The notes under the pieces were generated by a model. It saw only the letters and a list, made by a program, of their open reading frames with translations. It was not told the DNA's origin and did not search any database. From positions 1-46,449 of IMG/VR virus record IMGVR_UViG_3300022723_000282: a stretch of 46,449 bases of DNA. One strand, 5' to 3'. The stretch comes from a virus. This document shows positions 801 through 45,452 of the stretch, one piece after another (within the stretch, counting starts at the first letter, position 1; every line of letters starts with the position of its first letter). Made by a program: the position numbers and the translations under genes.

Positions 801-2822
801 TCAGCCGCCCGCGATCTCCAGCGCCTGGCGCGACCCGGCCGTGAACAGCACCGCGTCGTTATCCTCGATCAGCGTCCGCATGCGGTCCAGGAGGTTCTCG
901 GCCGCGTCGCCGATGATGTCGCCGGAGACGTTGAACTGCACGATCGTCGGCGGCCGCTGCTCCTCGTTTCTCTCGAAACCCGCGGTTACGCGCTGGAGGT
1001 TGCCGGCGGGCAGCGCGCTCGGTGTCGGTATGGGCCCGCTGCCGGCGCCGGCAGCCAGCGGCGCGCTCCCGCCGCCTGAGCCGATCGATTGCGCCTTGAT
1101 TGCGGCAATCTGAGCCGCGCCGGCCGCCGCCATCGCTGCCGCCGCAGGTATTCCTAGCGGGAAGCCGCCGGCGTTCTTGTACGAGGCAATGATGGCCGGG
1201 GGGAGCTCTACGGCCGCCTGCGCAAGCGCTGCCGCTCTTTGGACCCTGAAAAGTTTCTCACTGCCCGCCGCCTGGAAGGCCTGGGCGAACGATGCCGTCG
1301 ACTGCAGCACACTCTGTACCGTCTTGGAGCTCTTTTTCTCGAGGTCGATTTTCGACTTGTTGAACGCTTCAAGCGCCCGCAGCCGGCGGTTGGCGGCGTC
1401 CTGTTCGGTAATCAGTTTCGCCTGCTCGGCCTCGCCGATGATGAGGATCTCGTCGGCGAGCTTTTGCCGGAGCTTCTGCGTCTCTGTTAAGTATTGCCCA
1501 TCGAGCCGCGCCAGGCGTGCCTGCAATTTCTCGCGCTCCCGCTGAGCCGCCTCCTGGCCCGCCGCATCCTCCGCTACGGTTTGCTCGGGCGGCGCCTGCA
1601 CCCGGGCTGCCAGCTTGGCAACGGAGGCCTCTGCCCGCCGCTCCGCCTCGGCCGTGATCGCGTCGAGGCTCCGAGTGATCACCTGACCCGGCAGCTCGGC
1701 GGCCAGCAACGTTGCGAACTCGTCCTGCGCCTCACGGAATTTCTCGGCATGACGCGACGCCAGGTTCTCGAACGCCGCCGTGCCAGATTCTTTCAGTCGA
1801 TCCTCGACGGCCTGGACGTCGGCAAGCATCTCGCCGAACGCGCCGCTGACCTTCGACAACAGCCTGAGCGTCGATTTCAATGGCGTGAAGAAGCCGCCGA
1901 TGATCGCATTGCGGACGTCGTCGCCGATGAGCGTCGCGAGCCGAGACACGCCCTCGGTCATCACCGCGAACGCACCGCGTGCGAGTACCTCGAGGCCTTT
2001 CACGACCACGCGGACGCCGTGGACTCCGTTCGCGAGCGTCGCCGCTCCCTTGGTGCCGAGCTCGAACCCTTTGCTCACTGCCTTGCCGAGGCGGTCGCCT
2101 TCGATCGCCGTCGCGACGAACTTCTCCGCCAGCACCTCAATTACCGGCGCGACCTCGACCGCGACCTTGTTGGCGAGGCCGGTTGCAACGCTCTGGATGC
2201 GCTCAAACGAGCGGTTCGCAGCTTCGAGCTTCGCGGCGTCGATATCGGTGATCGACACGCCCAGGGCTTCGGCCTCTTCGGCGAGCTCGCGGAGGCCCTC
2301 AGCGCCGTCCTCTAGGATCGGCAGGAGATTGCTGGCGTCGCTTGCCAAGGACTCGAGCAGGAAGACTCTTTCCGACCGCGACTTCACCTGGTCGAGGGCG
2401 CCGGCGATCGCGAGCAGCTGTTGATCTGGCTTGAGCGCGACGAGCTGGCTTGCGCTGAGATTTAGGCGATCGAAGACGGCCGCGGCCGGACCACCGCCGG
2501 TGGTCGCCAGGTCGCCAATCTTGTCGCTCACGTCCTTGAAGATATCGGCGACCTTATCGCCCGCGACTTCAACCGTACCCGCCGCGTGCGACCACTCACT
2601 GAGCGTCTCCGTGCCGACGCCGACCGACTGCGCGAGTCGGCTCATCTCGGTGTTGGCCCGGATCGATTGCGTGACCATGACGGCCAGGCCTGCGGCAACG
2701 CCCGCACCGAGCGCGCCGGCCGCGTTCACCGTGCTCCGGATCGATTTGTGGAGCGACGCGAATGCGGCCTTCGTCCGGTCCGAGCCGAGGATCTGGAATG
2801 TGTATTTCGCGTCGGCGACCAT
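801..2822 (-). CDS. Tail tape-measure protein, copy 1
   Basis: A 673-residue protein that would span the lumen of a siphophage tail and set its length. It opens with a conserved segment (YTFQILGSDRTKAAFASLHK) followed by an Ala/Gly-rich hydrophobic stretch near residues 34-48. It then has long charged helices with LARLDGQYLTETQKLRQKL near residue 440, and a hydrophobic C-terminal region rich in AAA and AGAAQIAAI. The ATG overlaps the chaperone stop as ATGA. It is a diverged paralogue of the product at 40710-42725: same length within two residues, near-identical blocks around 1376-1445, and the same EDNDxVLF...SRQALEI ending. No tail-tip gene follows. The next frame is a truncated early gene, so copy 1 may be nonfunctional or act with right-unit proteins. 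Confidence 0.9.
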   Translation of the reverse strand: MVADAKYTFQILGSDRTKAAFASLHKSIRSTVNAAGALGAGVAAGLAVMVTQSIRANTEMSRLAQSVGVGTETLSEWSHAAGTVEVAGDKVADIFKDVSDKIGDLATTGGGPAAAVFDRLNLSASQLVALKPDQQLLAIAGALDQVKSRSERVFLLESLASDASNLLPILEDGAEGLRELAEEAEALGVSITDIDAAKLEAANRSFERIQSVATGLANKVAVEVAPVIEVLAEKFVATAIEGDRLGKAVSKGFELGTKGAATLANGVHGVRVVVKGLEVLARGAFAVMTEGVSRLATLIGDDVRNAIIGGFFTPLKSTLRLLSKVSGAFGEMLADVQAVEDRLKESGTAAFENLASRHAEKFREAQDEFATLLAAELPGQVITRSLDAITAEAERRAEASVAKLAARVQAPPEQTVAEDAAGQEAAQREREKLQARLARLDGQYLTETQKLRQKLADEILIIGEAEQAKLITEQDAANRRLRALEAFNKSKIDLEKKSSKTVQSVLQSTASFAQAFQAAGSEKLFRVQRAAALAQAAVELPPAIIASYKNAGGFPLGIPAAAAMAAAGAAQIAAIKAQSIGSGGGSAPLAAGAGSGPIPTPSALPAGNLQRVTAGFERNEEQRPPTIVQFNVSGDIIGDAAENLLDRMRTLIEDNDAVLFTAGSRQALEIAGG
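967..978. repeat. Near-match to TTTCGNNCGAAA (one mismatch)
   Basis: TTTCTCTCGAAA, inside tape-measure copy 1. The flanking bases extend the arms to GTTTC and GAAAC. Confidence 0.5.
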
Positions 2823-3220
2823 CAGGCGGCGGCGGGCGGATCGTCCGGTTTCTTGGCCCGGGTAAGACTCTGTTTGTACTCGTCGGCGGCCGTCGCCTTC
2901 GCGAAGATCGCAGAGGCCAGGTCGAAGAGGGTCTCCGCTGAGAGATCCTCAAACGCTCGATCGAGAACGAAAGGCAGCTCCTTGCCGTCATCCAGGTCCC
3001 GCACGCCGTCCCAGTCCTTCAAGCCGCGGCGGATGAGGAATACCTTGCCGGCGTGTGACGTCTTGAAGGCGCCGCCTGCCATCTCGCCAAGGGTCATCAG
3101 CTCGAGCAGATCGATAGCCGAGAGTGCGCGGATTTGAAATCGCTGGGTTGCGACGTGATCGTCGTCGGTTTCGGGCGACCACCACTCGGGCTTCAGAATC
3201 GACGCATTCGTTTCACTCAC
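2822..3220 (-). CDS. Tail assembly chaperone, copy 1 (G-like, no T extension)
   Basis: A 132-residue protein placed just before the tape-measure gene, where siphophages encode the gpG/GT tail chaperone that coats the tape measure during tail assembly. It starts with GTG at 3220, with GGGAG as ribosome-binding site. The N-terminus (ILKPEWWSPET) matches the IAPEWWTPKD segment of the right-unit chaperone. The central part also aligns (QIRALSAIDLLE against RIRALNGLEYCE). Unlike copy 2 it has no run of A residues and no -1 frame T domain: its stop overlaps the tape-measure ATG. It lies only 14 bp after the capsid gene, where connectors and tail tube would normally be. Confidence 0.78.
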   Translation of the reverse strand: MSETNASILKPEWWSPETDDDHVATQRFQIRALSAIDLLELMTLGEMAGGAFKTSHAGKVFLIRRGLKDWDGVRDLDDGKELPFVLDRAFEDLSAETLFDLASAIFAKATAADEYKQSLTRAKKPDDPPAAA

Positions 3221-3234
3221 AGGACTCTCCCAGA

Positions 3235-4176
3235 TCAGATCAGATTGACGAGGCAGGCGTGCTGCCAGTAGCCATAGGCGACCTCGCGCCAGGTGTCGAC
3301 GACGTACTGATGCACGTCGTTGTCGAACTCGAAATCGGAGCCCTCGGCCTTCGCCTTGAGGCTGAGCCCGTCCTCTTCCTGCCGAATGAACGGCTTGACC
3401 CGTCCATCTGTGCGGAAGATGGCGAACTTGTCGGTCCAGGTGTCGAGGCGGACGTTCTGCGCGACTGACACCTCGTAGTCTTCCGGCAGGCCGAGCTGCT
3501 CAAGAGTCGTACCGCTCGGCGTTTTTATCGCCTGCGAAGCTATCGTGTACAGCGAGCTCGGCGTGATGACGACGAACCGTCGCGCCGTCTCGTTCATCGG
3601 TTCGCCCTGGTCGTCGCGTACCCGCGCGAGCTGCTGCAGGCCGTCCATGATCGCGTGCTGCATTTCGGCTACGGATGGCTTCGCCGGAGTACCGTGAATG
3701 CCGGTCGGGTAGCCGGAAATATCGGCGCTGATGTCGTTCGACTGCGAACCGCTGTCGCCTTCCTCGTGAACGGTGTCGAAGAAGAACTGGCCGTCGTAGC
3801 AGACCGTGCTTTCGCCGCCGATGATCAGCGTGCTCAAGAGAGTGGCCCAGTGCGCGTTGGCCCGCATTGCGAGCTCGTCGATACGGGTCATCACCTGGCC
3901 CGATTTGTCGCGCCGCATGTGCCGGACCGGCACCTCGAGGGTCGCCTCGAAATGCTTGTTCTTCACGAGGATCTTGTTCTCGTTGAAGCCCTTCGCGTGC
4001 CGGCCGCCGACCCATTCGCGCATCGCCGGAGTCTGGCCGAGCCAGGCGTATTCTTCCGACTCCTGGTCGGAGCGGAAGTACATGGAAACCGGGTCGACCC
4101 AGCCGATGCCGGCGTCCTGCTCGAGGGTTCGATAGAAGCGGCCGATGACCGCTCGACTTGTGATCCTGTCGATCAT
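3235..4176 (-). CDS. Major capsid protein, Mu gpT-like, copy 1
   Basis: A 313-residue shell protein of the Mu gpT-like major head family. Visible signatures are AWLGQTPAMREWVGGRHAKG near residue 45, CYDGQFFFDT near 125, and the C-terminal block FAIFRTDGRVKPFIRQEEDG. It would form the HK97-fold capsid around the portal. The ATG at 4176 has a strong GGGGGA ribosome-binding site two codons after the decoration gene. The right-unit copy (45511-46449) shares roughly three quarters of its residues and its first 57 or so bases are identical. Copy 1 has no terminator after it, unlike copy 2, and is followed immediately by the tail chaperone. Confidence 0.92.
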   Translation of the reverse strand: MIDRITSRAVIGRFYRTLEQDAGIGWVDPVSMYFRSDQESEEYAWLGQTPAMREWVGGRHAKGFNENKILVKNKHFEATLEVPVRHMRRDKSGQVMTRIDELAMRANAHWATLLSTLIIGGESTVCYDGQFFFDTVHEEGDSGSQSNDISADISGYPTGIHGTPAKPSVAEMQHAIMDGLQQLARVRDDQGEPMNETARRFVVITPSSLYTIASQAIKTPSGTTLEQLGLPEDYEVSVAQNVRLDTWTDKFAIFRTDGRVKPFIRQEEDGLSLKAKAEGSDFEFDNDVHQYVVDTWREVAYGYWQHACLVNLI

Positions 4177-4178
4177 GA

Positions 4179-4583
4179 TTAAATCCCCCTCGCGTCGAAC
4201 TCGACCACGCAGTCGGTGCCGGAAATCCAGCGAGACACGTAGCCGATTTTGGAGTTGCTGCCGACGGTCAGCGTGAACGTTCCGTCGTCACTTGCGTAGA
4301 CAGCCGGTCGATCGTTCGAAGTGATGGCCGAACCGACAACCGTCAGCCGCACCCTGCCCTTCGTCTTGACCTCGGCCCTGATCGCGCCCGCGGCGCCGGA
4401 AGTGTTATCGGCCTTGAACTCGGCAAAGCCGAGGAACTTGTCCCCTGCCTGCAGAGCTCGGGCGTAGCCGGCGGCGTTCTCACCGACCGCGGCGCCCTCG
4501 TAGATCACCTCCGAAGCGGCGACCGGATAGGCCTCTTTCTCGCCGACCTGGTAGTCGCGAGGCGTGTTTGCGGAAAGTTCCAT
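4179..4583 (-). CDS. Capsid decoration/cement protein (DUF2190-like)
   Basis: A 134-residue protein of the small capsid-cement type that stabilises the expanded head. It begins NTPRDYQVGEKEAYPVAAS, followed by short beta strands with alternating Gly and Val/Ala and the segment GDKFLGFAEFKADN. That layout is typical of DUF2190-like proteins encoded between protease and capsid genes. Its ATG overlaps the protease stop (ATGA) and its own stop is two bases before the capsid ATG, so it is translationally coupled in the head operon. No counterpart is visible in the right unit because the window ends at the second capsid gene. Confidence 0.75.
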   Translation of the reverse strand: MELSANTPRDYQVGEKEAYPVAASEVIYEGAAVGENAAGYARALQAGDKFLGFAEFKADNTSGAAGAIRAEVKTKGRVRLTVVGSAITSNDRPAVYASDDGTFTLTVGSNSKIGYVSRWISGTDCVVEFDARGI

Positions 4584-5095
4584 CAGCTCTTACCTCCGAG
4601 GACCCTTGCCCTCTTCTCGTTTTTCATGAATGCGGCATACGACTCGAAGTCGTCAGCGAACTCCGCACGGAGATTTGCGTCGGCGTCCCATTTCGCCTTG
4701 AGGGACTGCGCGTCCGTAGCCGACTCGCGCGGCTGCGGAACATCGAGATCGCCCGACGCCTTGACGTCGTCGAGATCCTGCGCGTCCTCGGCACGATCTG
4801 CCTTGGACGACGCGCGCTTTTCCCTTTCGGCATTCAGGACGGCTACCGCCGCCTGTGGGCCGGTCGTCTTGCCGTCAAACTTGAGCGACGAGATCAACTT
4901 CTCGTGCCCCGGCATTGACTGCGCTTCGACGTCCTGGATTCGCTCGCGCTCAGCATCGGCGCCGGAGCTCTCACCCTCGGTACGGCCATCTGCCTTGCCA
5001 GCTTCGAAGCCCTCGGCGCGGCCTTCGTCGAAACCCTCCTTGCGGGCCTCGGCAAACACCTCCGGGTGCTTCTCCTTCAACGTTTTCAGGTCCAT
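4583..5095 (-). CDS. Nested capsid scaffold protein (Nu3-like internal start)
   Basis: An ATG at 5095 in the protease frame is preceded by CAGGAGT six bases upstream, a much better ribosome-binding site than expected by chance inside a gene. Starting there gives a 170-residue, charged, helical protein equal to the C-terminal third of the protease polypeptide. In lambda the scaffold Nu3 is made in the same way from within gene C. It would line the inside of the prohead and be removed by the protease. The call is an inference from the internal ribosome-binding site and domain boundary. Confidence 0.6.
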   Translation of the reverse strand: MDLKTLKEKHPEVFAEARKEGFDEGRAEGFEAGKADGRTEGESSGADAERERIQDVEAQSMPGHEKLISSLKFDGKTTGPQAAVAVLNAEREKRASSKADRAEDAQDLDDVKASGDLDVPQPRESATDAQSLKAKWDADANLRAEFADDFESYAAFMKNEKRARVLGGKS

Positions 5096-6022
5096 ATCGG
5101 ACTCCTGTATTTCTGTCGTTTGAGATTCGTCTCGCGTTTCGCGCGAAACATCGATTGCGGCAGCACCGGCCGCGAGGGCTTGAAACGCGTCATCATCGCT
5201 CAGCGCTTCAATGAGCTGGTCCAGCGTGGCAACACCGTCCACGAGACCAGCATCGATAGCACGCTGGCCGATAAACATGCGTCCATCAGCCATCCGCTTG
5301 AGAACATCGTCCGACGTCGTACCGCGGTGCTTCGCAACGACGTCGACGAACATCGAATAGAGGTAGTCCACGTCGTCCTGCAGCGTGGCCTTACCCTCCT
5401 TGGAAAGCGGCTTGTACGAGCTGTGGATCCGCTTGTATTTGCCGGCGTAGATCTCGGTGACCTTGATGCCGGCGTTTTTGTAAGCCTCGGAGTAATCGAC
5501 GTGCTGCGTGACAACACCAATTGAGCCGACGTGCGTAGTCGGGCCGGTCATGAAGACGTACTCGGCGGCCGAGCCTATCCAGACGCCGGCCGAAGCCATC
5601 AGGCCATCAGCCAGTGCGACGACTCGCTTCTGTCCCCGTGCTTCGAACACGACCTCGCCGAGCTCGGCCGTCCCGTCTACGGACCCGCCCGGAGTATCCA
5701 GGTGCAGCACGATCGAGTGCACATCGTCATCCGCCAGTGCCTGACGAATATCGCGCTCTACCAGCTGCGTTGAGCATCCGCCCGAAATCTGGCTGAAAAG
5801 GTTCATTTTCTTGGCAATGACGCCTTCAATCGGGACTATTGCAACGCCTTTAATGACGTCGTAGCCTTTTTCGTCGTTCGAAAGCGGAACGCCGAGCCGC
5901 GCCTCGACCTTCTCGATATCGATCTTCTCGCCGCGCAGATGCGTGGAATAGATCTCGGTAATCTCGTCGAGACGCTCCGGAATGATGGCCCAGGGCGCCG
6001 AAAGCACATCTATAATCTTCAC
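4583..6022 (-). CDS. S49 (SppA/ClpP-like) prohead protease with C-terminal scaffold
   Basis: A 479-residue protein like lambda gpC. Residues 60-270 form an S49 serine protease with IVPIEGVI, the HLDTPGGSVDG turn, nucleophile Ser144 in MASAGVW and general base Lys195 in YAGKYKR. It would mature the prohead by cutting scaffold and capsid proteins. Residues 305-479 are charged, helical and scaffold-like (EARKEGFDEGRAEGFEAG). A nested start inside the gene would yield the scaffold alone. The ATG overlaps the portal stop and the stop overlaps the decoration ATG. A TTTCGNNCGAAA palindrome lies in the linker, encoding VSRET. Confidence 0.9.
   Translation of the reverse strand: MKIIDVLSAPWAIIPERLDEITEIYSTHLRGEKIDIEKVEARLGVPLSNDEKGYDVIKGVAIVPIEGVIAKKMNLFSQISGGCSTQLVERDIRQALADDDVHSIVLHLDTPGGSVDGTAELGEVVFEARGQKRVVALADGLMASAGVWIGSAAEYVFMTGPTTHVGSIGVVTQHVDYSEAYKNAGIKVTEIYAGKYKRIHSSYKPLSKEGKATLQDDVDYLYSMFVDVVAKHRGTTSDDVLKRMADGRMFIGQRAIDAGLVDGVATLDQLIEALSDDDAFQALAAGAAAIDVSRETRDESQTTEIQESDMDLKTLKEKHPEVFAEARKEGFDEGRAEGFEAGKADGRTEGESSGADAERERIQDVEAQSMPGHEKLISSLKFDGKTTGPQAAVAVLNAEREKRASSKADRAEDAQDLDDVKASGDLDVPQPRESATDAQSLKAKWDADANLRAEFADDFESYAAFMKNEKRARVLGGKS
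5137..5148. repeat. TTTCGNNCGAAA palindrome, exact (centre CG)
   Basis: GTTTCGCGCGAAAC with flanks, a perfect 14-bp palindrome. It differs from the bacterial parS core GTTTCACGTGAAAC at two positions. It lies in the linker between protease and scaffold domains and encodes VSRET. Confidence 0.75.
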
Positions 6023-7659
6023 TCTTGGTCTTCCTCGCGCTGCTCGTCGGTATCCGTGCCTTCGTCGTCCTGTTCCGGCTCGTCCATTTCGTCGGGATCG
6101 TCCGGCTCCTCATCACTTGAGGCGGAGGCCGGGCTTCCCACGTCCGCCTGGTCGCGCCTGATCATCCGGAGTTCCTTCGTGCGCTGACGGTGCACGCTCT
6201 CCCAGTCCTCACCGGTCGCTTCGGCAGTGATGCGGTCCAGCGTCTTCGTGCCGAGTGCATACGCTTCAACCTCCGCCTTTATTTCCTGCAAAGGCTGAAT
6301 GTGACCTTTCGCTGGTCCAGTCCAACTGCAGCCCAGATAGGCAGCTCGGACCGCGGGGTCTCCATCCAAAAAACCCGGTGCCGCGATACGACCGAGTTCG
6401 ACCGCCTCAGTCATCCACTCCTCGTAAACCGGCATGCAGAACTTCCCGATAAGGAATTCCCGCCTCGATCGGAAAAACTTCCATGCCAGCTCGAGGGCCG
6501 CCCGCGACGCACTGTAGGATGCTGTGAAGTGCATGATCAGCAACTCAAACGGAAGCTCGAGTGCTACGCCGATCTGCCGCAGAACCGACATGACAAACGG
6601 GTCGTAGGCCGTATTCGGTCGAGACGGATTGACGGTCTCGATGCTTTCGTTGTCGGCGAGATCAATAATCGCCCCGGAACCCAGCTTGACTTCGTCCGAC
6701 TCCGCACTGGATATACCCTCGGCGCTGCCTACCTCGAGCGGGTTTATTCCACCGTCGGACTTCACAAAGACGGTCAGAAGCCCGGACACCACGGCTGCCT
6801 GTATCTCCGCCTCCGTGTAGTCGCTGAGCTGCTTCAGCGCTTCGATGACCGGCGCCAGGTCGGGTACACCCCGGGATTGACCAATTCGGAGCTTGCGGTA
6901 GATGTGCAGCACATTGCGGCGTCCCGTCCGCGCGCCGAACATCCGCACCTTTTTCCATGTCGATTGCGACGAGTACGGATTCCCCGGGTGGCCATTCAGG
7001 ATATGTACTATGGTCGGCGTCCCCCGCTCGTCGCGCTCAATACCGCCCGCAAGGTTCGGTTTGTCCGCGGCGTTGCTTTCGTTGCATACCCGATCAGCTT
7101 CGATCAGGTTCAACGCCAGCCGATATGGGATGCGCTGACGTTCGACAAGCGGCATCAGAACAAAGACGTCGCCGTTTTCCAGTGTTGACCGAAAAACCAA
7201 ATCCTGCATCTCGTACAGGTTGGCGTCGCGCGTAATCGAGCATTCCTGGCTGCTGGCCCAGAGACTGAACTCGCGCTGCGTGTTCCGCTCCCACTCGTCC
7301 GCCTCGTCCTCGTCCATGCCGAGAAAGTCCCGATCGACGCGACACTGCAGCCGCAATCCGCCGCCGACGATGTTCGTGACCTTCGTGTTGATCGCGCCGG
7401 TCGCGATCGGCGTGTTGCGGACAAGGTCGCGTGAACGCTCTCTCAGCGTCGGAAGGTCCGGCAAGATATCCGTGTCAGCATCACCGTGTGAATGTCGCCA
7501 TCCGCGCGTCGGCTTCCTGCGCCTTGACCCGCCGATGTACGCCTCAGCGACCGCCATCTGATACCGGGCCTGCGTTCGGCGAAGTCCGTTTTCGGGCGAA
7601 AAATGGCCAATCACTCGATCGAGCCAGGTCATTTCGACGTCGATTCGGCGGCGGCTCAC
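6019..7659 (-). CDS. Portal protein, lambda gpB family
   Basis: A 546-residue portal protein that forms the ring for DNA entry and exit at one capsid vertex. Recognisable segments are RERSRDLVRNTPIATGAINT near residue 72, TNIVGGGLRLQ near 95, LPFELLIMHFTASYSASRAA near 368 and WKFFRSRREFLIGKFC. The C-terminus is very acidic (EEPDDPDEMDEPEQDDE). The frame opens with GTG at 7659 in a GTGA overlap with the gpW stop; an ATG nine codons later is the alternative. It lies between gpW and the protease in the standard lambdoid head order. A TTTCGGGCGAAA palindrome lies near its 5' end at 7590. Confidence 0.93.
   Translation of the reverse strand: MSRRRIDVEMTWLDRVIGHFSPENGLRRTQARYQMAVAEAYIGGSRRRKPTRGWRHSHGDADTDILPDLPTLRERSRDLVRNTPIATGAINTKVTNIVGGGLRLQCRVDRDFLGMDEDEADEWERNTQREFSLWASSQECSITRDANLYEMQDLVFRSTLENGDVFVLMPLVERQRIPYRLALNLIEADRVCNESNAADKPNLAGGIERDERGTPTIVHILNGHPGNPYSSQSTWKKVRMFGARTGRRNVLHIYRKLRIGQSRGVPDLAPVIEALKQLSDYTEAEIQAAVVSGLLTVFVKSDGGINPLEVGSAEGISSAESDEVKLGSGAIIDLADNESIETVNPSRPNTAYDPFVMSVLRQIGVALELPFELLIMHFTASYSASRAALELAWKFFRSRREFLIGKFCMPVYEEWMTEAVELGRIAAPGFLDGDPAVRAAYLGCSWTGPAKGHIQPLQEIKAEVEAYALGTKTLDRITAEATGEDWESVHRQRTKELRMIRRDQADVGSPASASSDEEPDDPDEMDEPEQDDEGTDTDEQREEDQE
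7590..7601. repeat. TTTCGNNCGAAA palindrome, exact (centre GG)
   Basis: TTTCGGGCGAAA in the 5' part of the portal gene, codons of HFSPENG. Confidence 0.7.
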
Positions 7660-18377: not shown

Positions 18378-18782
18378 TCACGTAATCCTGATGATGATCG
18401 GAATGTTTGGCTTGCCGCAGCCCACATCCCGCACGGCCTCGCCGCTGAAATTTGACCACTCGCCGGCGGCGCCCTGCACTCGCATGACCATGAAGTACGT
18501 CTTGCCGCATTCGAGGTCGATGGTTACCTGCGTATCCGGTGTGTCGACGGTCGCCAAGATCGCCGAGGGCGGCGGCACGTCATCCGCACCCGTACAGCCG
18601 TCCGGCGAATTCCGTGGGATGGTCGACTCGCTGATGTAGATTTCGGCGGCCTGGATGTCACCGATCGCCAGCGGGTCGCCGTTGCAGTAGGACTCGGGCC
18701 ACGAGTACTCGATGGTCACGTCTGCTGCAAAGGCCGGTCCCATCAGCAAGACGAGCGAGACGAGCGCGAATAGCTTCTTCAT
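18378..18782 (-). CDS. Secreted protein with signal peptide
   Basis: A 134-residue protein beginning MKKLFALVSLVLLMGPAFA, a clear Sec signal peptide with cleavage expected after AFA. The mature part has about five Cys residues and a fibronectin-III-like strand pattern (VTIDLECGKTYFMVMRV, GEWSNFSGEAV). The ATG at 18782 has GGAGAAATC upstream; longer frames run into the tRNA and are artefacts. It is the first late gene after the terminator at 18797. It could be a periplasmic lysogenic-conversion protein or a superinfection factor; no specific family is recognised. Confidence 0.7.
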   Translation of the reverse strand: MKKLFALVSLVLLMGPAFAADVTIEYSWPESYCNGDPLAIGDIQAAEIYISESTIPRNSPDGCTGADDVPPPSAILATVDTPDTQVTIDLECGKTYFMVMRVQGAAGEWSNFSGEAVRDVGCGKPNIPIIIRIT

Positions 18783-18796
18783 GATTTCTCCGGGGC

Positions 18797-18821
18797 AAAA
18801 AAACCCGCGCTCGGCGGGTTT
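18797..18821 (-). terminator. Intrinsic terminator downstream of tRNA (tR'-like)
   Basis: On the minus strand an 8-bp perfect stem, AAACCCGC with GCGGGTTT around a 5-base loop, is followed by a run of seven T. It lies between the tRNA and the first late gene. In lambdoid phages such a terminator blocks late transcription until antiterminator Q acts, which fits the Q-like gene just upstream. Confidence 0.8.
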
Positions 18822-18829: not shown

Positions 18830-18904
18830 TGGTTGCGGAGACAGGATTCGAACCTGCGACCTCCTGGTAGTGAGCCAGGCGAGCTGCCGCTGCTCTACTC
18901 CGCG
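18830..18904 (-). tRNA. Initiator-type tRNA with CAC anticodon (GUG-reading)
   Basis: A 75-nt cloverleaf with encoded CCA, closely resembling bacterial initiator tRNA. Acceptor strands CGCGGAG and CTCCGCA leave the C1-A72 mismatch that marks initiators. The D stem has A11-U24, the variable loop is AGGTC, and the T loop is TTCGAAT. The anticodon loop is CUCACUA, giving anticodon CAC (reads GUG) instead of CAU. In the anticodon stem the usual three G-C pairs are reduced to two, with a U-A pair at 29-41. It could be an initiator for GUG starts, or a derived tRNA-Val. Position 37 is U, which is unusual. Confidence 0.85.
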
Positions 18905-19016
18905 ACAACGACAAGCCCGCACGAGGCGGGCCTTTGGTGCACCGGCAATTCCGGTAGCATGGCGAATAGTACCGTTTACCCTACTTTTTTCAACTATTTT
19001 GGCCGTTTTAGGCGTT

Positions 19017-19661
19017 TCAGGCTGTCTGCGGATCGCCGATGCGGTTCGCGATGTGTGTACAGCCGCCACCAAACCAAAGAAACGCCTGCGACTGGAGCGT
19101 GGCGTAGGGCTCGTCGATTTTGATTCGCCAGTGCGACGGACTGAGTCCGAACCAGTCCGCCCGCTGCGTGTGCGTGCTGTAAGTATTTGGCCAGCGGAGC
19201 TCGAGCAGGGTCAGCGTGACCAGGTCGGGAACGTAATCCCCGGCCGGTATGCGCTCGCCAAGGCGCCACTTCCGGCGAACGGTGCGAGGCCAGAACGGAT
19301 CCCGGCCGTACGACCGGCGCGCGAGCTTCAACAGTGTCCCGTGGAGTTGCTCGTAGGCGTCAGCCTCCTCGCTGATCGCCCATCGGAGCGCCGCCCACTC
19401 GAATCGAGGCATACCTGAGACGGCGTAGTTCGATATTTCGACCAGTCCGGACGTCCGCTTTCTCGAGCGCGTCGCAGTGCCAGCGGCCGTCGCCTGGCTC
19501 TGCCGGCGCGCGTAACGCGGGATAACCTCGCCGTCGAGCTCGGCGATCGCCGACTCGAGCTTTGCGATGACCCCACGCATGTCGGTATGCCCGCCCGGGC
19601 CGTTGTCGATCCACTGACCACGCGCCGTCAGTGAGCCCAGGATATCTTCGACGGTCAGCAT
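19017..19661 (-). CDS. Q-like late antiterminator candidate
   Basis: A 214-residue protein starting at ATG 19661, whose ATGCTGA overlaps the stop of the ParB-like gene. An ATG nine codons earlier is possible. The C-terminal half is a basic helical region (RRSYGRDPFWPRTVRRKWRLG) followed by a helix-turn-helix-like stretch (RADWFGLSPSHWRIKIDEPY), seen in phage antiterminators. It lies directly upstream of the tRNA and terminator that head the late genes, the genomic place of lambda Q. The role is therefore inferred mostly from position. It would let RNA polymerase pass the terminator at 18797. Confidence 0.5.
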   Translation of the reverse strand: MLTVEDILGSLTARGQWIDNGPGGHTDMRGVIAKLESAIAELDGEVIPRYARRQSQATAAGTATRSRKRTSGLVEISNYAVSGMPRFEWAALRWAISEEADAYEQLHGTLLKLARRSYGRDPFWPRTVRRKWRLGERIPAGDYVPDLVTLTLLELRWPNTYSTHTQRADWFGLSPSHWRIKIDEPYATLQSQAFLWFGGGCTHIANRIGDPQTA

Positions 19662-20653
19662 CGTCTTTCGCCACGCGCCGCCGAACACGCCCGCTCACAC
19701 GCCGGCAAGGTGCGAGAGACGGCACGAATTGCGCGCCGTAGAGAGTCAACCACCTGACGGTAGTCCTGATCGAGCGCCCGCGCGACTTCGTCGATCGTCA
19801 TCCACTTCAGGAAATAGAGCTGCAGGCACTCGTAGAGTTCCGGGTGCGGACCGAGCATCACCGCCGCAACCGCCTTTTCTACTGCCTCAATCTCGTGCGG
19901 AAACCGGCCATGCCTGACCGTATTCAGCCGGTCTCTGACGCTCGGCGTAATCCGCAGGCCGCCGGATATTTCATCGATCCTGTCGGTGGGGTTGGTGCGG
20001 TTCTCGACCCATACGCCCCAGGCCAGGAGCCTTAAGTAGATCGCCTCCTCGAAGTAGCGCGTTTCGGACGAAACGCTCATCCGCTCGAGGTTGATCTGCG
20101 CTGCCAGATAAAAGCCGAACATGCCAACACTATGCGGTACGAGCGAAGTGAACAGCGGACGGCGCATGTACTGGTTGGCGAGCCGCGGCAGTTCCTTGTG
20201 GCGCTCGACCACGGCAAGAACCTCCTTGTTCGATATCCGTCGTGCGCCACCTTTGCCCGATATCCAGTTCCGCTCGTAGGCGAAGACGCTACGCGCTGCG
20301 GCAGCCAACGCATTCGGATTCTTGTAGTCCAATACGTAAAGCGTATCGCCGGCGTTTCTGGCCTTGCCGGCGTCCAAAGTATTGAACACGTCAGGATCCA
20401 GATTACGAACAACGCAGGTTTCGATCGCCTTGCCGGCAATTAAAATGGCAGACAATCGATGCTGACCATCGAGCAAACGGCCGGTTTCGTCGAACTTTAT
20501 CGCCTCGCCGTTGATGCACCACTCACCGCGGTCTATAGCTGAAGCAAGGCGTTTCACTGTCGAGTTGCTCAGCTTGCGATTTCGGGTGTTCTTCTCGATG
20601 TATTGCCTGGCTTTTGCCGGTGTAATCGTCTCGACACTGAACTCGACAGTCAT
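19655..20653 (-). CDS. ParB-like nuclease-fold domain fused to antiterminator-like domain
   Basis: Counting from ATG 20653 (ATGA overlap with the upstream gene), residues 1-185 match a common phage ParB/Srx-fold protein: GEWCINGEAIKF, LLDGQHRLSAILIAG and VFNTLDAGKARNAGDTL. That family normally continues about 60-80 residues more. Here the match stops at residue 191 and the frame continues into another protein. The second part (MSVSSETRYFEEAIYLRLLAWG to AVSRTL) resembles a Q-type antiterminator with a sigma region-4-like HTH (WMTIDEVARALDQDYRQV). It has its own ATG at 20080. A perfect TTTCGNNCGAAA palindrome sits at the joint. Confidence 0.65.
   Translation of the reverse strand: MTVEFSVETITPAKARQYIEKNTRNRKLSNSTVKRLASAIDRGEWCINGEAIKFDETGRLLDGQHRLSAILIAGKAIETCVVRNLDPDVFNTLDAGKARNAGDTLYVLDYKNPNALAAAARSVFAYERNWISGKGGARRISNKEVLAVVERHKELPRLANQYMRRPLFTSLVPHSVGMFGFYLAAQINLERMSVSSETRYFEEAIYLRLLAWGVWVENRTNPTDRIDEISGGLRITPSVRDRLNTVRHGRFPHEIEAVEKAVAAVMLGPHPELYECLQLYFLKWMTIDEVARALDQDYRQVVDSLRRAIRAVSRTLPACERACSAARGERRC
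20062..20073. repeat. TTTCGNNCGAAA palindrome, exact (centre GA)
   Basis: Extended GTTTCGGACGAAAC. It sits at the joint between the ParB-like and antiterminator-like halves of the 19655-20653 gene, encoding VSSET right after the internal ATG. Confidence 0.75.
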
Positions 20654-23002: not shown

Positions 23003-23194
23003 TCAGCTGGCGGGCTGTGGTTGATGCGGAACGGTAACGCTCTTGCCATGTCGAAGCGCAGCCCCGTTCACTCGATCGACGGTCGCCTGCGGCAGTTCAT
23101 CCGGCCACATGTAGATGGCATGGCGCGTAATACCGAGCGCCGCCGCCAACTTCGGCACGGACTCAAATATCTCGATCGCTTCTGTCTTGGTCAT
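23003..23194 (-). CDS. Cro-like repressor
   Basis: A 63-residue protein with a Cro/YdaS-type helix-turn-helix: AIEIFESVPKLAAALGITRHAIYMW, then DELPQATVDRVNGAAL. It starts at ATG 23194. The longer ATG at 23212 lies inside operator O1 and is unlikely. The -10 element TACTAT (minus strand, 23207-23202) predicts a transcript start at about 23195, so the mRNA may be leaderless or nearly so. It is divergent from cI across three operators and would shut off cI to promote lytic growth. Confidence 0.8.
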   Translation of the reverse strand: MTKTEAIEIFESVPKLAAALGITRHAIYMWPDELPQATVDRVNGAALRHGKSVTVPHQPQPAS

Positions 23195-23201
23195 GGGGTG
23201 G

Positions 23202-23231
23202 ATAGTAAACATGTTTACGTATGATGGTCAA
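23202..23231 (-). promoter_or_regulatory. Early rightward promoter pR-like (drives cro)
   Basis: On the minus strand TTGACC (23231-23226) and TACTAT (23207-23202) are separated by 18 bp. Operators O1 and O2 overlap the two elements, as expected for a repressor-controlled early promoter. Confidence 0.6.
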
Positions 23232-23261
23232 CTTGCTTACTCTGACGGTAAGTATAATTAC
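23205..23261. promoter_or_regulatory. Three repressor operators O1-O3 between cro and cI
   Basis: Three related 14-mers of the form GTNANNNTNNTTAC lie here. O1 is GTAAACATGTTTAC at 23205-23218, a perfect palindrome. O2 is GTCAACTTGCTTAC at 23227-23240. O3 is GTAAGTATAATTAC at 23248-23261, extended by ACG/CGT arms. Centres are 22 and 21 bp apart, two helical turns, as for lambda OR1-3. They overlap the promoters of both divergent genes. Confidence 0.8.
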
Positions 23262-23265
23262 CGTG
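23230..23265 (+). promoter_or_regulatory. pRM-like promoter for cI
   Basis: A perfect TATAAT at 23253-23258 lies within O3, with only a weak -35 match upstream (AACTTG at 23230 with 17-bp spacing). The predicted transcript start at about 23265 coincides with the GTG start codon of cI. The message would then be leaderless, as is lambda cI from pRM. Confidence 0.55.
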
Positions 23266-23672
23266 TGGGTGATCTACTTGGGGATAGGATTAAGGAATTG
23301 CGGCGCTCTGCCGGCCTGAGCCAGGCCGACCTGGCAGAGCGTTGCAGCGTTTCGCGTGAGGCGGTGTCGCAATGGGAAAGCGGGGCGACAAAGAATCTCC
23401 GCAACCCAAACCTGGTGAAGGTAGCAAAGGCCTTTGCTATGACGCTCGACGAACTGGTTTCGGGAACGCAGCCGCTACGGGTTGCAGATGAATCGCCTGA
23501 TTACCAACGGCAGCCAGGCGACATCACCGCCGAAGAACTCACACTGCTCGAACAATACCGCGAGCTGTCACCCACAGATCGTCAACGACTGCGCAAGATA
23601 CTTGCGGCGTTTGGTCTGGACGTCAACGACGATACTGACAACCACACGATGCCACCCAGAAGCCCGGCATAA
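23265..23672 (+). CDS. CI-like XRE-family repressor without peptidase domain
   Basis: A 135-residue repressor with an N-terminal XRE helix-turn-helix (IKELRRSAGLSQADLAERCSVSREAVSQWE in outline, residues 9-38). An acidic C-terminal region follows with a helical ELTLLEQYRELSPTDRQRL segment. It has no S24/LexA-type peptidase domain, so RecA-driven self-cleavage is not expected and induction must use another route. I chose GTG at 23265 because the ATG at 23211 lies inside operator O1. It would hold the prophage state by binding O1-O5. Confidence 0.75.
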   Translation: MGDLLGDRIKELRRSAGLSQADLAERCSVSREAVSQWESGATKNLRNPNLVKVAKAFAMTLDELVSGTQPLRVADESPDYQRQPGDITAEELTLLEQYRELSPTDRQRLRKILAAFGLDVNDDTDNHTMPPRSPA

Positions 23673-29871: not shown

Positions 29872-30084
29872 ATGCCTGCCGCCGCCGCCACCGCTGAAAC
29901 GCTGATTTATCCGAAACGATGGATCAAGCTCGAGGCCTATTGCGCCCTGACCGGAGAGACAAAAAACGCCGTTGAGACGCGGGTTGCAAAGGGTCAGTGG
30001 GTCCGAGGCGTGCATGTGAAGGTCAAGAGTCGTAGGCTCTGGGTAAATCTTCCGGAGGCGGATCGATGGGTAGAGAGCGGTTGA
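29872..30084 (+). CDS. xis: Excisionase-like DNA-binding protein
   Basis: A 70-residue protein beginning at ATG 29872. Residues 15-66 form a small winged-helix of the phage excisionase type (KRWIKLEAYCALTGETKNAV, VAKGQWVRGVHVKVKSRRLWV). It overlaps the integrase start by 19 bp, the usual xis-int arrangement. It would bend att DNA and steer integrase toward excision. Confidence 0.75.
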   Translation: MPAAAATAETLIYPKRWIKLEAYCALTGETKNAVETRVAKGQWVRGVHVKVKSRRLWVNLPEADRWVESG

Positions 30085-31244
30085 AGAAGCTAAGCCCCGG
30101 CATTTACCTGCGACAGTACGCCTCTGGGAAGACGTCTATTCAGGTGCAGTTCTCGTACATGGGCGTCCGCTGCCGCGAGACGTTCACCGGTCTGGATCCG
30201 ACGAAGAAGTCGCACGTGAACATCGCCGCACATCGCCTGGGCGCGGTGAAGGACTCCATCCTGAAGGGCACGTTCAAGTATCACGAGCACTTTCCTGAAT
30301 CCCGGCGCGCATCGCTTTTCGGCCACGGGCTGTCCGCGAGGACAGTCCGCGACGTCGGTGATTCATGGCTCGATGACATGAAGCGGTCGAAACCGCACAG
30401 CACCTACTACTCGTACTGGAAGTGCACGAACAACTTCGTGTATCCCGAGCTCGGCAGCCTCCGGGTGCGTGATGTTAGCCCCGAGCATGTGCGCCGAATG
30501 TTCCGAAAGATGGATGTTTCGCTCAAAACCGCTCGCAACTATTCGATCCCGGTGAAGGCTATCTTCGAGCGCGCTGTCGAAGACGGGGATATCGAACGCA
30601 GCCCATTCGAGCGGGTCAACCTGCGGAACCTCATTCCGTACGAGAAGCGCCGCACCGACTACGAAGTAGACCCTTTCAACGAGACCGAGATATCCAAGAT
30701 ACTTGCGGCGGCGGAACAGCACCGGCCGGACTGGCGAAACTACATCGCCCTGGCCGTGTTCACCGGACTGCGTACGTCTGAGCTGTACGCGCTGCGTTGG
30801 AGCGACTGGACCGGCGACATCCTTCATGTGCAGCGCGCCCGCGTGGAGGGCCAGAACAAGATCACCAAGAACGTCACGAGCAACCGCGAGCATCAGCTCT
30901 CTCCGGCCGCGAAAGCCGCGCTCAAGCGTCAGCGCGCGCTGACGGCGTTCAACGATGAGATATTCTGGAATCCGAACACGAAGCGGCCGTTGACGCGCTA
31001 CGAGCCGTCACAGCGAGCCCTGGACTACTGCTGCAAGAAGGCCGGCGTGCGCCGCAGAATCCAGTACCAGACACGCCACACCTACGCGAGCAACATGCTC
31101 AGCCAGGGCGCGAGCCCTCACTTCGTCGCAGCGCAAATGGGCCACAAATCGGTCCTGACGCTGTTTCGCCACTATGGCCGCTGGGTGGAGGGAAGTGCCA
31201 CGCACGTGCCCCTTGCCGGCCTCACGTTTGGAGAAGGTCAATGA
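30066..31244 (+). CDS. int: Tyrosine site-specific integrase
   Basis: A 392-residue phage integrase. Residues 1-75 look like the DUF3596-type arm-binding domain (SPGIYLRQYASGKTSIQVQF). Residues 85-185 form the core-binding domain. The catalytic domain shows R236 in GLRTSELYALRW, R337 in YQTRHTYAS, H360 in MGHKS and nucleophile Y370 in RHYGRW. The usual His of the HxxR box is Tyr334, a variant seen in this integrase branch. A tRNA-Leu-like att core follows 17 bp after the stop. It would insert the phage into a host tRNA-Leu gene. Confidence 0.95.
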   Translation: MGRERLKKLSPGIYLRQYASGKTSIQVQFSYMGVRCRETFTGLDPTKKSHVNIAAHRLGAVKDSILKGTFKYHEHFPESRRASLFGHGLSARTVRDVGDSWLDDMKRSKPHSTYYSYWKCTNNFVYPELGSLRVRDVSPEHVRRMFRKMDVSLKTARNYSIPVKAIFERAVEDGDIERSPFERVNLRNLIPYEKRRTDYEVDPFNETEISKILAAAEQHRPDWRNYIALAVFTGLRTSELYALRWSDWTGDILHVQRARVEGQNKITKNVTSNREHQLSPAAKAALKRQRALTAFNDEIFWNPNTKRPLTRYEPSQRALDYCCKKAGVRRRIQYQTRHTYASNMLSQGASPHFVAAQMGHKSVLTLFRHYGRWVEGSATHVPLAGLTFGEGQ

Positions 31245-40709: not shown

Positions 40710-42725
40710 TCAGCCGCCAACGATCTCGAGCGCCTGCCGCGAAGTTGGCCCGAACAGCACGACGTCGTTGTCTTCGATCATCGTCCGCATCTCGTCGAGG
40801 ACTGCCTGCGCCGAGTCGGTCCGCACATCACCGTCAATATTGAACTGGACAATCGTCTGCGGCCGGTCCCGGTCCGAGCGGTCAAAGTCGCGGGTAATGC
40901 GCTCCAGGTTGCCAGCAGGTAACGCGCTCGGCGCCTGGCCGGTCGTGCCGGCGCCGGCCGATGCCGACGAGCTGCTCGAGGTACCGCCACCGATCGAGGC
41001 GCGCGCGATGGCGGCTATCTGAGAAGCACCGGCGGCAGCCATAGCAATTGCCGCCGGAATGCCGAAGGGATAGCCGCCGGCGTTCTTGTACGACGAGATG
41101 ATCGCGGACGGGAGCTCTGCCGTCGCCTGGGCGAGCGATGCCGCCTTCTGGGCCTTGAACAGCTTCTTGCTGCCGCTGGACTGAAAGGATTGGATGATGG
41201 CCTGGCTCGACTGCAGGACGCCCTGAACACCCTTGGAGCCCTGCTTTTCGAGATCGACCTTCGCCTTTTGGAATCCTTCAAGCGCCCGCAGCCGGCGGTT
41301 GGCTGCGTCCTGTTCGGTAATCAGTTTCGCCTGCTCGGCCTCGCCGATGATCAGAATCTCGTCGGCGAGCTTCTGGCGGAGCTTTTGCGTCTCCGTGAAA
41401 TACTGCTCATCCAGCCGCGCCAGCCTGGCCTGCAGCTTCTCGCGCTCAGCCGCCTCCCGGGGATCCTCGGTTTCGGCCGAAACGCCTTCGCCGGTGTCCT
41501 GGGCGATGCTCGCGCGGATCTCGGCGACCTTCTCCCGCGCCCTGACGTCCGCCTCGGCGAGGATCCGGTCGATGTTTTCCTTGATTACCGTGCTCGGCAG
41601 TTCCTGCATCAGCAGGTCGTGGAGCTCGCCGCGGGCGATGTCGAAGGCCTGCGCCTGCGCATCCGCGAACGCTTGCATCGAAGCCGGTACCTTGATCTCA
41701 ATCTTTTCGACCAGGTTGTCGACGTCGGCCAGCGCATTCGCGGCCATGTCGCTGAACGGCGCGGCGAGCTCGAGGACTTTGCGGATCGGCGAGACGACGC
41801 CTGAGACGATCGCATTGGCGACATCGCCAATGATCTCGATCAGTTTGACGAACCCACTGACGAGAACGAAGTTCATGCCTCGACCAATAACCTCGACACC
41901 CTTGAAGGCAACCTGCAGACCTCGGGCACCGTCGGCCATTATTCCGGCGGCCTTGCCACCGACCTGGAATCCATGACTGATTCGCGCCCCTAGTTGCTCA
42001 CCTTCCGTCGCGGCTTGGACCAGCCTTTCCGACAACGCTTCAACTATCGGAGCTACCTCAACAGCGACCTGAGTGCCAAATCCGGCCATGATGCCTTGAA
42101 CGCGCTCAAATGAGCGCGCAGCAGCCTCAAGCTTAGCCGCATCTATATCCGAGATTGATACGCCCAGAGATTCGGCTTCGTCGGCCAGTACCTTCAGTTG
42201 CTCTCCGTTGTCCTCGAGCAGCGGCAGCAGACGGCTTGCATCGCTGGCCAGAGCCTCAAGGAAGAATATTTTTTCCGATCGACTGTTGACGCTATCCAGC
42301 GCCTGACCGATTTTTAGGAGTTGCTGGTCTGCCGTAAGGCCGACGAAGTCCTTGACGTTGAGATTCAGTTTCTCGAACATATCGGCAGCTGCACCGCCAC
42401 CGGTCGTTACGAAGTCGCCGATCTTGTCCTCGACATCCTTGAAAATGTCGGCCATCTTGTCGCCTTCGACGTTGACCGTCTTGGCAGCGTGCGTCCATTC
42501 CGACATCGTCTCAGAGCTAACGCCAACAGACTGCGCGAGGCGGCTCATCTCCGCGCCCGCCCGAGTCGACTGGACAACCATCACGCTAAGGCCTGCCGCG
42601 ATGCCTGCGCCCATGGCTCCAGCTGCATTCACCGTGCTACGAATAGACTTGTGAAGCGATGCGAAGGCCGCCTTCGTCTTGTCGTTTCCAATGATCTCGA
42701 ATGTGTACTTATTGTCGGCGATCAT
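40710..42725 (-). CDS. Tail tape-measure protein, copy 2
   Basis: A 671-residue tape measure, paralogous to the product at 801-2822 and aligned over its whole length. It has YTFEIIGNDKTKAAFASLHK at the start, a hydrophobic stretch at 35-51, LARLDEQYFTETQKLRQKLA near 435, and an Ala-rich hydrophobic C-terminal part (AAIAMAAAGASQIAAI). It starts at ATG 42725, overlapping the -1 frame stop of the chaperone (ATGA), so frameshifted ribosomes end at its start. A perfect palindromic TTTCGGCCGAAA site lies at 41471, encoding VSAET. Confidence 0.92.
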   Translation of the reverse strand: MIADNKYTFEIIGNDKTKAAFASLHKSIRSTVNAAGAMGAGIAAGLSVMVVQSTRAGAEMSRLAQSVGVSSETMSEWTHAAKTVNVEGDKMADIFKDVEDKIGDFVTTGGGAAADMFEKLNLNVKDFVGLTADQQLLKIGQALDSVNSRSEKIFFLEALASDASRLLPLLEDNGEQLKVLADEAESLGVSISDIDAAKLEAAARSFERVQGIMAGFGTQVAVEVAPIVEALSERLVQAATEGEQLGARISHGFQVGGKAAGIMADGARGLQVAFKGVEVIGRGMNFVLVSGFVKLIEIIGDVANAIVSGVVSPIRKVLELAAPFSDMAANALADVDNLVEKIEIKVPASMQAFADAQAQAFDIARGELHDLLMQELPSTVIKENIDRILAEADVRAREKVAEIRASIAQDTGEGVSAETEDPREAAEREKLQARLARLDEQYFTETQKLRQKLADEILIIGEAEQAKLITEQDAANRRLRALEGFQKAKVDLEKQGSKGVQGVLQSSQAIIQSFQSSGSKKLFKAQKAASLAQATAELPSAIISSYKNAGGYPFGIPAAIAMAAAGASQIAAIARASIGGGTSSSSSASAGAGTTGQAPSALPAGNLERITRDFDRSDRDRPQTIVQFNIDGDVRTDSAQAVLDEMRTMIEDNDVVLFGPTSRQALEIVGG
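41471..41482. repeat. TTTCGNNCGAAA palindrome, exact (centre GC)
   Basis: Extended GTTTCGGCCGAAAC, fully palindromic over 14 bp, in tape-measure copy 2 (VSAET). The same place in copy 1 lacks the site. Confidence 0.75.
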
Positions 42726-43371
42726 GGCTGGCTCATTACGTGGTCAATCAATGTCATCGCCTCTAGGAAGACGTTTGGCTGCTCGTACATCCCGCCAGAA
42801 ATTGGCAATATCCGGTCCTTGTAGAGTTTGTGAATCTCGATCAACTCCCACGACAACGGCGAGATCATGGGTAGAAGACACACATCGCTTTCAATAACCT
42901 CTGGTATTACCCACTGCTTTATTGGGGCGGGGTTTCGTCCGTCGCAGAATCGTCCCCACTCACACTCGTCGCAGTTGAACCGTTTGGAGTTTTTGACGAC
43001 CTCGCAGGCGATGTGCAGGTTCTTTTTTTTTCGTCAGTCATCGCACTCTTCGTCATGATTTGCCCCGCAATTTCAGGCAGTAGGGCTGCATCGAGACACT
43101 GCCAGGCGTTCTCGATCGAAAAGTCGGGCAGCGGAACCTCTGCGTCGCTCGGCTGCTTCCAGTCGAGTAAAGCGGTCCGGAGCAGATATCGCAGACCCGG
43201 GATGTCCATTACCCACCGACCGTCGTCACCGCGGCCGACCATCGACATGGCTTCACAGTACTCAAGTCCATTCAGCGCCCGGATCCGCAGGCTGATTGGC
43301 CGATCCTCGCCATCCGCGTCCTTCGGCGTCCACCACTCCGGCGCGATCAGTTTTGCTATCGTCTCGTGCAT
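42722..43371 (-). CDS. Tail assembly chaperone GT, made by -1 frameshift (copy 2)
   Basis: The 0-frame product is 150 residues (43371 to 42919) and opens IAKLIAPEWWTPKDADGED. At codons 114-116 the message reads GAA AAA AAA AGA, with nine A in a row (43031-43023), a classic slippery run. Slipping back one base opens a 100-codon frame that ends at 42722, exactly on the tape-measure ATG. The T part contains NCDECEWGRFC and a helical end. The fused GT product is 216 residues. As in lambda G/GT, both forms would guide tail-tube assembly on the tape measure. Coordinates cover the fused product. Confidence 0.85.
43023..43031 (-). promoter_or_regulatory. Programmed -1 frameshift slippery site
   Basis: A run of nine A on the minus strand (heptamer A AAA AAA in the 0 frame) lets the P- and A-site tRNAs re-pair one base back. 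The new frame is open to the tape-measure start. Confidence 0.85.
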
Positions 43372-43379
43372 CGAAGAAC

Positions 43380-44300
43380 TCAGGTAAAGGTGAGCGTGAA
43401 CGCGGAATCGTCACCGACGGCCCGGAACGGGATCTCGAGTGACCGCAAACCGTTCCGCGATGCAAACTCGATGCTGCGATACCTGGCCGTCGGCACGGTG
43501 AGTTGAACCAGGTTGCCGGCGGTCGTGCCGACCACGCCGGTCGTGACGGCCTTGTCCACCATGCTCTTCCAGTCGCCGATCCAGTCTTCCGTGGCCTTCA
43601 GCGTGTGCTCTGGATCGATGGACCCGGTCATGTCTCGGTCCACGATAAAGATGTCCGAGTAGCCATCGGCTGCGTTGGCATCAGGCGGAAACTCGACCTG
43701 GTTGCCGACGTCGAGACTCAGATTCGAGACGCGCGCCGCATACCCGCCGACGTCAACAGAGGCACCGATGAACGCGATCGGCGACGTGCTGTCGTAGGTT
43801 CCGGCTACGATGGCAACATCGCTGTCGCCGCCGTCCTTTCCGACGAAGCTGAAATTCGCCATGATCTTGTCGTCGGTGCCGAACGCTAAGTCCACGTTAC
43901 CGCGGCAGCCGAGAGCGATCTGCAACTTGCCGGCATGGTAGTAATAGATCGTCGCACTCTCGATTGCCGTGCTGACCGGCGCGTAGGCAACCGACGTCGA
44001 TGCGACAATCGTCTCATCAAGGCCGCACGCCCTGAGTGCCTGACCGATCTCCGGCGCAGTGCCGGCCGCGCCAGAACCTTTCATCGCGACCCCGAATTCG
44101 AACCGCACGAGGTTGCCGGCGTAGAGGTCCTCCTCCTTGCCGAGCGTGGCCTTTTCCGGCGCTTGTTCGATTGTCCGCACCGCGTCGTAGGACATGCCAA
44201 CCTCGCCCTCGACGAGGATGGCATCGGCAGCAATCGGCGAGGCATCGACACCGTAGGCGCTCTCGATCTTGAGAAGCAGTGTTCCCTGTTTAACCAGCAT
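43380..44300 (-). CDS. Major tail tube protein
   Basis: A 306-residue protein in the tail-tube position between connectors and chaperone. It opens with VKQGTLLLKIESAYGVDASP and then has long alternating beta strands typical of tail-tube folds (YYYHAGKLQIALGCRGN, KIMANFSFVGKDGG, VEFPPDANAADGYSD, FTLTFT at the end). It would polymerise as hexameric rings around the tape measure. The left unit lacks this gene. The ATG lies within the end of the 44-residue gene upstream. Confidence 0.8.
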   Translation of the reverse strand: MLVKQGTLLLKIESAYGVDASPIAADAILVEGEVGMSYDAVRTIEQAPEKATLGKEEDLYAGNLVRFEFGVAMKGSGAAGTAPEIGQALRACGLDETIVASTSVAYAPVSTAIESATIYYYHAGKLQIALGCRGNVDLAFGTDDKIMANFSFVGKDGGDSDVAIVAGTYDSTSPIAFIGASVDVGGYAARVSNLSLDVGNQVEFPPDANAADGYSDIFIVDRDMTGSIDPEHTLKATEDWIGDWKSMVDKAVTTGVVGTTAGNLVQLTVPTARYRSIEFASRNGLRSLEIPFRAVGDDSAFTLTFT

Positions 44301-44424
44301 CTTTGCCGCCCTCCGGTTTGTGCTTGCTGTCCTTGCTCGTGGATTTGCCCTTGTCGGGCTCGATCACGCGCGAGCCGCCTTTCCGCGGCACGTACGTTTT
44401 GGTCTTGCGGTTAGAATCGGTCAT
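44290..44424 (-). CDS. Small lysine-rich protein, 44 residues
   Basis: ATG at 44424 opens a 44-codon frame (MTDSNRKTKTYVPRKGGSRV to KPEGGKDAG) with about 11 Lys, ending inside the tail-tube start region by an 11-bp overlap. It fills the gap between tail terminator and tube genes exactly. It is probably a small disordered head-tail or tail accessory protein. Confidence 0.6.
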   Translation of the reverse strand: MTDSNRKTKTYVPRKGGSRVIEPDKGKSTSKDSKHKPEGGKDAG

Positions 44425-44425
44425 C

Positions 44426-44860: not shown

Positions 44861-45132
44861 CGCTTCTGCTCGCGAAGAAATACAGTGGTCAGACCCATGC
44901 CATCATCGTGCGACGACACGACCTCGAACGCGCGATCCCTGATGATCAGCGTCGTATCCCTGGACCGAAGGCCAGTCGCATCGGCAGGAGCGCAGACGAT
45001 AGATGGACGGAAGGTGTCATCTTCCGCAGATTCATCGAAAATCGCGTCGAACTCCGAACCGCTCTCGCTGACACGGACGCGGACAAAGCCCGGAGTCGAC
45101 GCGTTGATGTAGATGGATGGGTCGTCGTTCAC
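44857..45132 (-). CDS. Head-tail connector (gpFII-like)
   Basis: A 91-residue beta-rich protein resembling head-tail joining proteins of the FII type: VRVRVSESGSEFDAIFDES, FRPSIVCAPAD, TTLIIRDRAFEVVSS, GLTTVFLRE. It would bind below the portal and form the tail docking ring. It overlaps both neighbours by four bases. Confidence 0.65.
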   Translation of the reverse strand: MNDDPSIYINASTPGFVRVRVSESGSEFDAIFDESAEDDTFRPSIVCAPADATGLRSRDTTLIIRDRAFEVVSSHDDGMGLTTVFLREQKR

Positions 45133-45434: not shown

Positions 45435-45452
45435 TGATCTCTCCTCGGCAGC

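Follow-up and report, generated by a model that had tools for sequence, protein, structure and literature searches.

Can a phage carry a transfer RNA that starts proteins at GUG instead of AUG? The starting tRNA of bacteria is taken to read with a CAU anticodon and to be charged with methionine, and versions with other anticodons are known from laboratory mutants. The window, by which we mean the whole 46.4 kb stretch of viral DNA analyzed, contains a single tRNA gene, proposed to be an initiator with an anticodon complementary to GUG.

18830 to 18904, minus strand: initiator-type tRNA with anticodon CAC and encoded CCA, found by ARAGORN, Rfam and our covariance model

The gene is named Val-CAC by ARAGORN, and matches Rfam RF00005 with 58.9 bits against a cut-off of 29. 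The RNA reads CGCGGAG-UA-GAGC-AGCGGCA-GCUC-G-CCUGG-CUCACUA-CCAGG-AGGUC-GCAGG-UUCGAAU-CCUGU-CUCCGCA-ACCA. The acceptor stem (CGCGGAG/CUCCGCA) forms six pairs with a C1xA72 mismatch at its end, and the D stem (GAGC/GCUC) includes an A11:U24 pair. The anticodon arm is CCUGG-CUCACUA-CCAGG, the variable loop AGGUC and the T stem strands GCAGG and CCUGU, with A73 preceding the encoded CCA. Every feature on which the proposal had been based (C1-A72, A11-U24, AGGTC, CCA and the loop CUCACUA) is therefore present in the sequence. The earlier note had regarded a broken fold as fatal to the idea, and here each of the 20 stem pairs is able to form, 19 of them as Watson-Crick pairs. Minimum-energy folding of the single sequence without a tRNA model prefers a structure other than the cloverleaf, as is not unusual for an unmodified tRNA. 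Two details were absent from the earlier description: the anticodon stem lacks one of its three classical G:C pairs, 29:41 being U:A, and position 37 is U, a pyrimidine and not a purine. The tRNA gene is real, and the observation is confirmed.

Is the body of this tRNA that of an initiator? As the training set for a covariance model we took 36 diverse CAU initiator tRNAs from viral contigs and named phages, most of them gathered by a sequence pattern that fixes some of their positions, and with this model we searched the window and 24 other loci. The window tRNA scores 85.3 bits. In the same search CAU initiators score 82-98 bits, other viral CAC tRNAs 78-89 and the best elongator about 65, so that the window tRNA lies inside the range of CAU initiators and some 20 bits above the highest-scoring elongator of that search. 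It has the unpaired 1:72 position (C1xA72) and the R11:Y24 pair (A11:U24) of bacterial initiators, and lacks the paired 1:72 and Y11:R24 of elongators. Of the three G:C pairs 29:41, 30:40 and 31:39, the first is replaced by U:A. Because the CAU anticodon and the third G:C pair are both missing, the tRNA is not filed as tRNA-fMet. We compared it with 103 phage CAU initiators. Among them C1xA72 is the commonest state at 1:72, U:A occupies 29:41 in 28, and A11:U24 is frequent, as is U29:A41 together with two G:C pairs. From the covariance score and this comparison we conclude that in its body the tRNA is an ordinary phage initiator, and that it is the loop that differs. Across the same 103 tRNAs, 29:41 is G:C in 30, and thus about 70% of them do without this third initiator-marking pair.

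The name given by ARAGORN corresponds to an ordinary elongator tRNA-Val(CAC). Such a role is very improbable, given the initiator features C1xA72 and A11:U24 and the 20-bit distance from the best elongator. Moreover, GTG makes up only 23% of the valine codons in the window, and an elongator role is therefore not called for.

Within the loop, A37 is found in 111 of 111 CAU initiator loops counted, where the window tRNA has C36 followed by U37. Could the anticodon result from faulty sequencing or assembly of a CAU gene? Such errors do seem to arise. Using a stricter pattern in bacterial genomes we found three MAGs with a CAC initiator, each having a single match to the initiator pattern. Relatives were compared for two of these (the third is L134): CAT is present in all six genus relatives of the first, and at the matched gene in 16 family relatives of the second. 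The MAG sequences are probably consensus errors and were not counted. In the window, however, two neighboring bases of the loop depart from CUCAUAA, which a single-base error would not produce, and some of the other viral cases are each backed by a pair of separate contigs or of isolates. We give the explanation by error almost no weight.

Those other viral cases came from pattern scans of IMG/VR, the patterns being of limited reach. CAC initiator-type tRNAs were found in four further viral or prophage lineages, and other anticodons occur on similar bodies.

L002: CAC, loop CUCACAC
L124 and L127: CAC, loop CUCACAA
L153: CAC, loop UUCACAA
L154/L155: CAC, loop UUCACUG
L129, 3168-3241: CAG, loop CUCAGUA, with C1xA72, three G:C pairs and U37; would pair with CUG
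L130, 11700-11774, and L132, 2706-2778: initiator-type with anticodon UAC and C1xU72
L123, 1871-1928, and L125, 1225-1282: broken hybrid of the 5' part of a CAC initiator with the 3' part of another, CAU-bearing tRNA

L154 and L155 are one phage from two metagenome samples, 99.98% identical over the shared stretch that bears the tRNA. L124 and L127 share 99.0% identity over a stretch of 24 kb but diverge outside it, and are separate prophages. The CAC form is rare, since the CAU pattern gave at least 120 matches and the corresponding CAC pattern one. Its recurrence in other lineages argues against an accidental origin. The tRNA of the window occurs naturally, is of the initiator type and has a re-coded anticodon; tRNAs of this kind recur in phages. 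Several candidates were set aside. The tRNA at L128, 4026-4099 (CCA) has the initiator-type D stem GAGC/GCUC, but A1:U72 is paired and we treat it as an elongator, as we do the viral L131 (GGG), also paired at 1:72. ARAGORN finds no tRNA in L126, nor at six other pattern matches in genomes.

The relatives indicate where a CAC anticodon may come from. In L127 the gene order is antiterminator, tRNA, two small genes, then the small and large terminase subunits, and a CAU initiator lies at the matching place behind a NusG-like antiterminator in phiLM21 and in Rhizobium phage RHph_TM3_3_3. Close CAU copies lie on one Ensifer and one Sinorhizobium replicon. With CAU at the same locus in relatives, the CAC anticodon of phiLM21-like Sinorhizobium prophages is most simply a change derived from CAU. 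Relatives with CAU had been put forward as evidence against a GUG role; they do exist for the Sinorhizobium CAC prophages, and the role is not refuted by them. For the window phage itself, searches of viral contigs with its 800-aa protein, terminase and Q-like protein, and of named phages with several proteins and the tRNA region, returned distant homologues only. The nearest CAU relative of the window tRNA in the compared set is that of phiLM21, with 66 of 75 aligned columns identical. For the phiLM21 gene (L183, 21148-21224; KJ743987.1) the deposited record gives the minus strand, but it is the plus strand whose sequence has the form of an initiator. Xanthomonas phages DoCa5 and Elanor and phage CBW1004C-Prop1 (L149, L150 and L151; ON932079.1, ON189045.1 and MZ188970.1) also contain CAU initiator tRNAs, which are missing from their annotation.

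A change from CAU could be the result of neutral drift, in which a dispensable phage initiator mutates in its anticodon and stays in the genome, doing no harm or keeping slight activity. Damage to the gene is frequent in phiLM21-like prophages, as the broken hybrid of L123 and L125 illustrates; one Ensifer copy is interrupted by an insertion in its variable loop, and other copies look degraded. The CAC tRNAs themselves have intact stems, however, with no more mismatches than the CAU tRNAs, and the identical CAC tRNA is kept in L124 and L127 where the prophages differ by about 1% over 24 kb. In addition, U37 recurs only alongside changed anticodons (the window, L154/L155, L129 and L130). We regard drift as unlikely, if a serious contender.

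If the gene is functional, what would it do? Valine identity resides in A35, C36 and A73, together with minor elements elsewhere (PMC9976931), and the window tRNA has all three of these nucleotides. By these rules the amino acid expected on it is valine, not methionine. There is a close precedent in the engineered E. coli initiator G34C36, with A35-C36 in the anticodon GAC, which is charged by valyl-tRNA synthetase, formylated, and starts at GUC with formyl-valine (PMC2268962). Taking the identity set and this precedent together, the simplest mechanism is formyl-valine initiation at GUG. By analogy, the host valyl-tRNA synthetase would charge the CAC initiator with valine. The 1:72 mismatch would then permit formylation by the host transformylase and exclude the tRNA from elongation. 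Finally, the ribosome would accept it in the P site where GUG is the start codon, and a fraction of phage or host proteins would then begin with formyl-valine. U37, missing from the 111 CAU loops counted, may weaken decoding. We put the complete reading, a phage-type initiator re-coded from CAU to CAC, charged by valyl-tRNA synthetase, formylated and starting proteins with formyl-valine at GUG, at just short of an even chance.

The surroundings of the gene bear on when it would be expressed.

19655 to 20653, minus strand: gene weakly matching a Q-like antitermination C-terminal domain (E 9e-5; phrog_5931, phrog_79), upstream of the tRNA; the scan used a longer start at 20728
19017 to 19688, minus strand: gene without known family, between the Q-like gene and the tRNA
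18966 to 18993, minus strand: predicted sigma-70-like promoter TTGAAA-N16-TACTAT, upstream of the tRNA
18913 to 18933, minus strand: 8-bp GC-rich hairpin just 5' of the tRNA (-14.2 kcal/mol, z -2.66)
18797 to 18821, minus strand: hairpin and T run resembling an intrinsic terminator, directly 3' of the tRNA (-11.9 kcal/mol, z -2.48)
18378 to 18782, minus strand: first predicted gene after the tRNA, with an ATG start and without known family, opening the late region

The promoter pattern occurs once in the 600-base region against 0.1 expected in shuffled sequences, and over 19 kb it is not above chance. A pattern scan did not list the terminator-like hairpin at 18797 to 18821. The suggestion that the tRNA serves late growth fits its location behind the Q-like gene at the head of the late region, and several phage CAU initiators likewise adjoin an antiterminator gene or terminase. 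The layout suggests that the tRNA is transcribed at the head of the late region. Transcription from a promoter there might give a short unit that ends at its own terminator, or might read through into the late genes. We rejected a role for the tRNA as an attachment site, the integrase gene being far off at 30066-31244. At the two ends of the window (801-4176 and 40710-46449) there are two tape-measure and two major-capsid genes, the capsid DNA being 79.5% identical, and these duplicated ends possibly reflect adjacent prophages or a chimeric contig.

The genes that start with GTG are the potential clients of a GUG-reading initiator. We called start codons with a simple custom gene caller applied alike to all loci. 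In the window 12 of 54 genes start with GTG, or 8 of 35 high-scoring genes, and ATG starts about 70%. Two of these genes are singled out as candidate clients.

6019 to 7659, minus strand: portal gene, GTG start
4583 to 6022, minus strand: head maturation protease gene, GTG start

The earlier note had counted at least 14 such genes, among them those of the portal and the repressor. The count was roughly right and the portal gene is one of them, but the gene taken as the repressor (23115-23672) is called with an ATG start. The further idea that the phage boosts its GUG-started genes finds no support in these numbers. The 8 of 35 in the window compare with 28 of 164 at CAU-initiator loci of similar GC (Fisher p = 0.47), and the 10 of 54 in L127 with 15 of 113 in two CAU relatives (p = 0.37); the other CAC phages show no clear excess of GTG starts, including against their closest CAU relatives. 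The lack of significant enrichment is a point in favor of drift, and it is unlikely that the tRNA greatly boosts GUG-started genes. A passage in PMC11497404 quotes GUG starts with the host CAU initiator at 58% of AUG. As GUG already works with the host initiator, the benefit to the phage may be small.

An advantage might instead lie in evading an anticodon nuclease of the host directed at the initiator, with a loop altered to resist VapC-like enzymes so that GUG-started genes continue to be translated. Evasion of VapC and other nucleases has been predicted for phage tRNAs whose loops are altered (PMC10264068), some VapC toxins cleave initiator tRNA according to references cited there, and the CAC set is altered at positions 36-38. 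On the other hand, a CAC tRNA is no proper substitute for a cleaved CAU initiator at the ATG-started majority of phage genes. Furthermore, the host is not known to have a nuclease of this type. We consider this explanation improbable. The window tRNA also differs from the phage tRNAs of that study, in which altered loops are proposed to resist nucleases, in that the anticodon itself is changed.

Formyl-valine initiation at GUG can be set against known systems. The window tRNA shares with E. coli G34C36 the initiator body, A35-C36 and, as expected for it, valine charging, formylation and starting at a valine codon. The E. coli tRNA is a laboratory mutant that reads GUC, whereas the window tRNA is natural, with C34 to read GUG, U37 and two G:C pairs. 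Phage tRNA-fMet(CAU), for example that of Sinorhizobium phage phiLM21, has the same body and the same place behind an antiterminator gene, but CAU and A37 in place of CAC and U37. In the part of a 2025 survey of phiLM21-like prophages that lists their tRNAs (PMC12429752), one tRNA-Val(CAC), in phiAK83-016 of S. meliloti, appears among mostly CAU tRNAs; that listing gives it by anticodon without comment on an initiator body. Compared by this listing, it is probably of the same kind as L124/L127, with CAC in a phiLM21-like prophage. Our literature search found no natural non-CAU initiator described as an initiator. CAC initiators are easy to overlook because ARAGORN names all of them tRNA-Val.

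It is possible, if doubtful, that re-coding of the initiator tRNA to non-AUG starts (GUG, perhaps CUG) arose independently in several unrelated phages, and that infected cells contain proteins with formyl-valine or other non-methionine N-termini. Since re-coded initiators turn up in viruses that are not related, valine may be the starting residue of some proteins in certain viruses. If the tRNAs are active, viruses would alter both the start codon and the starting amino acid of proteins. With active CAC initiators, the ribosome's requirements for an initiator could also be tested on natural examples, and non-methionine initiation could be engineered from existing components.
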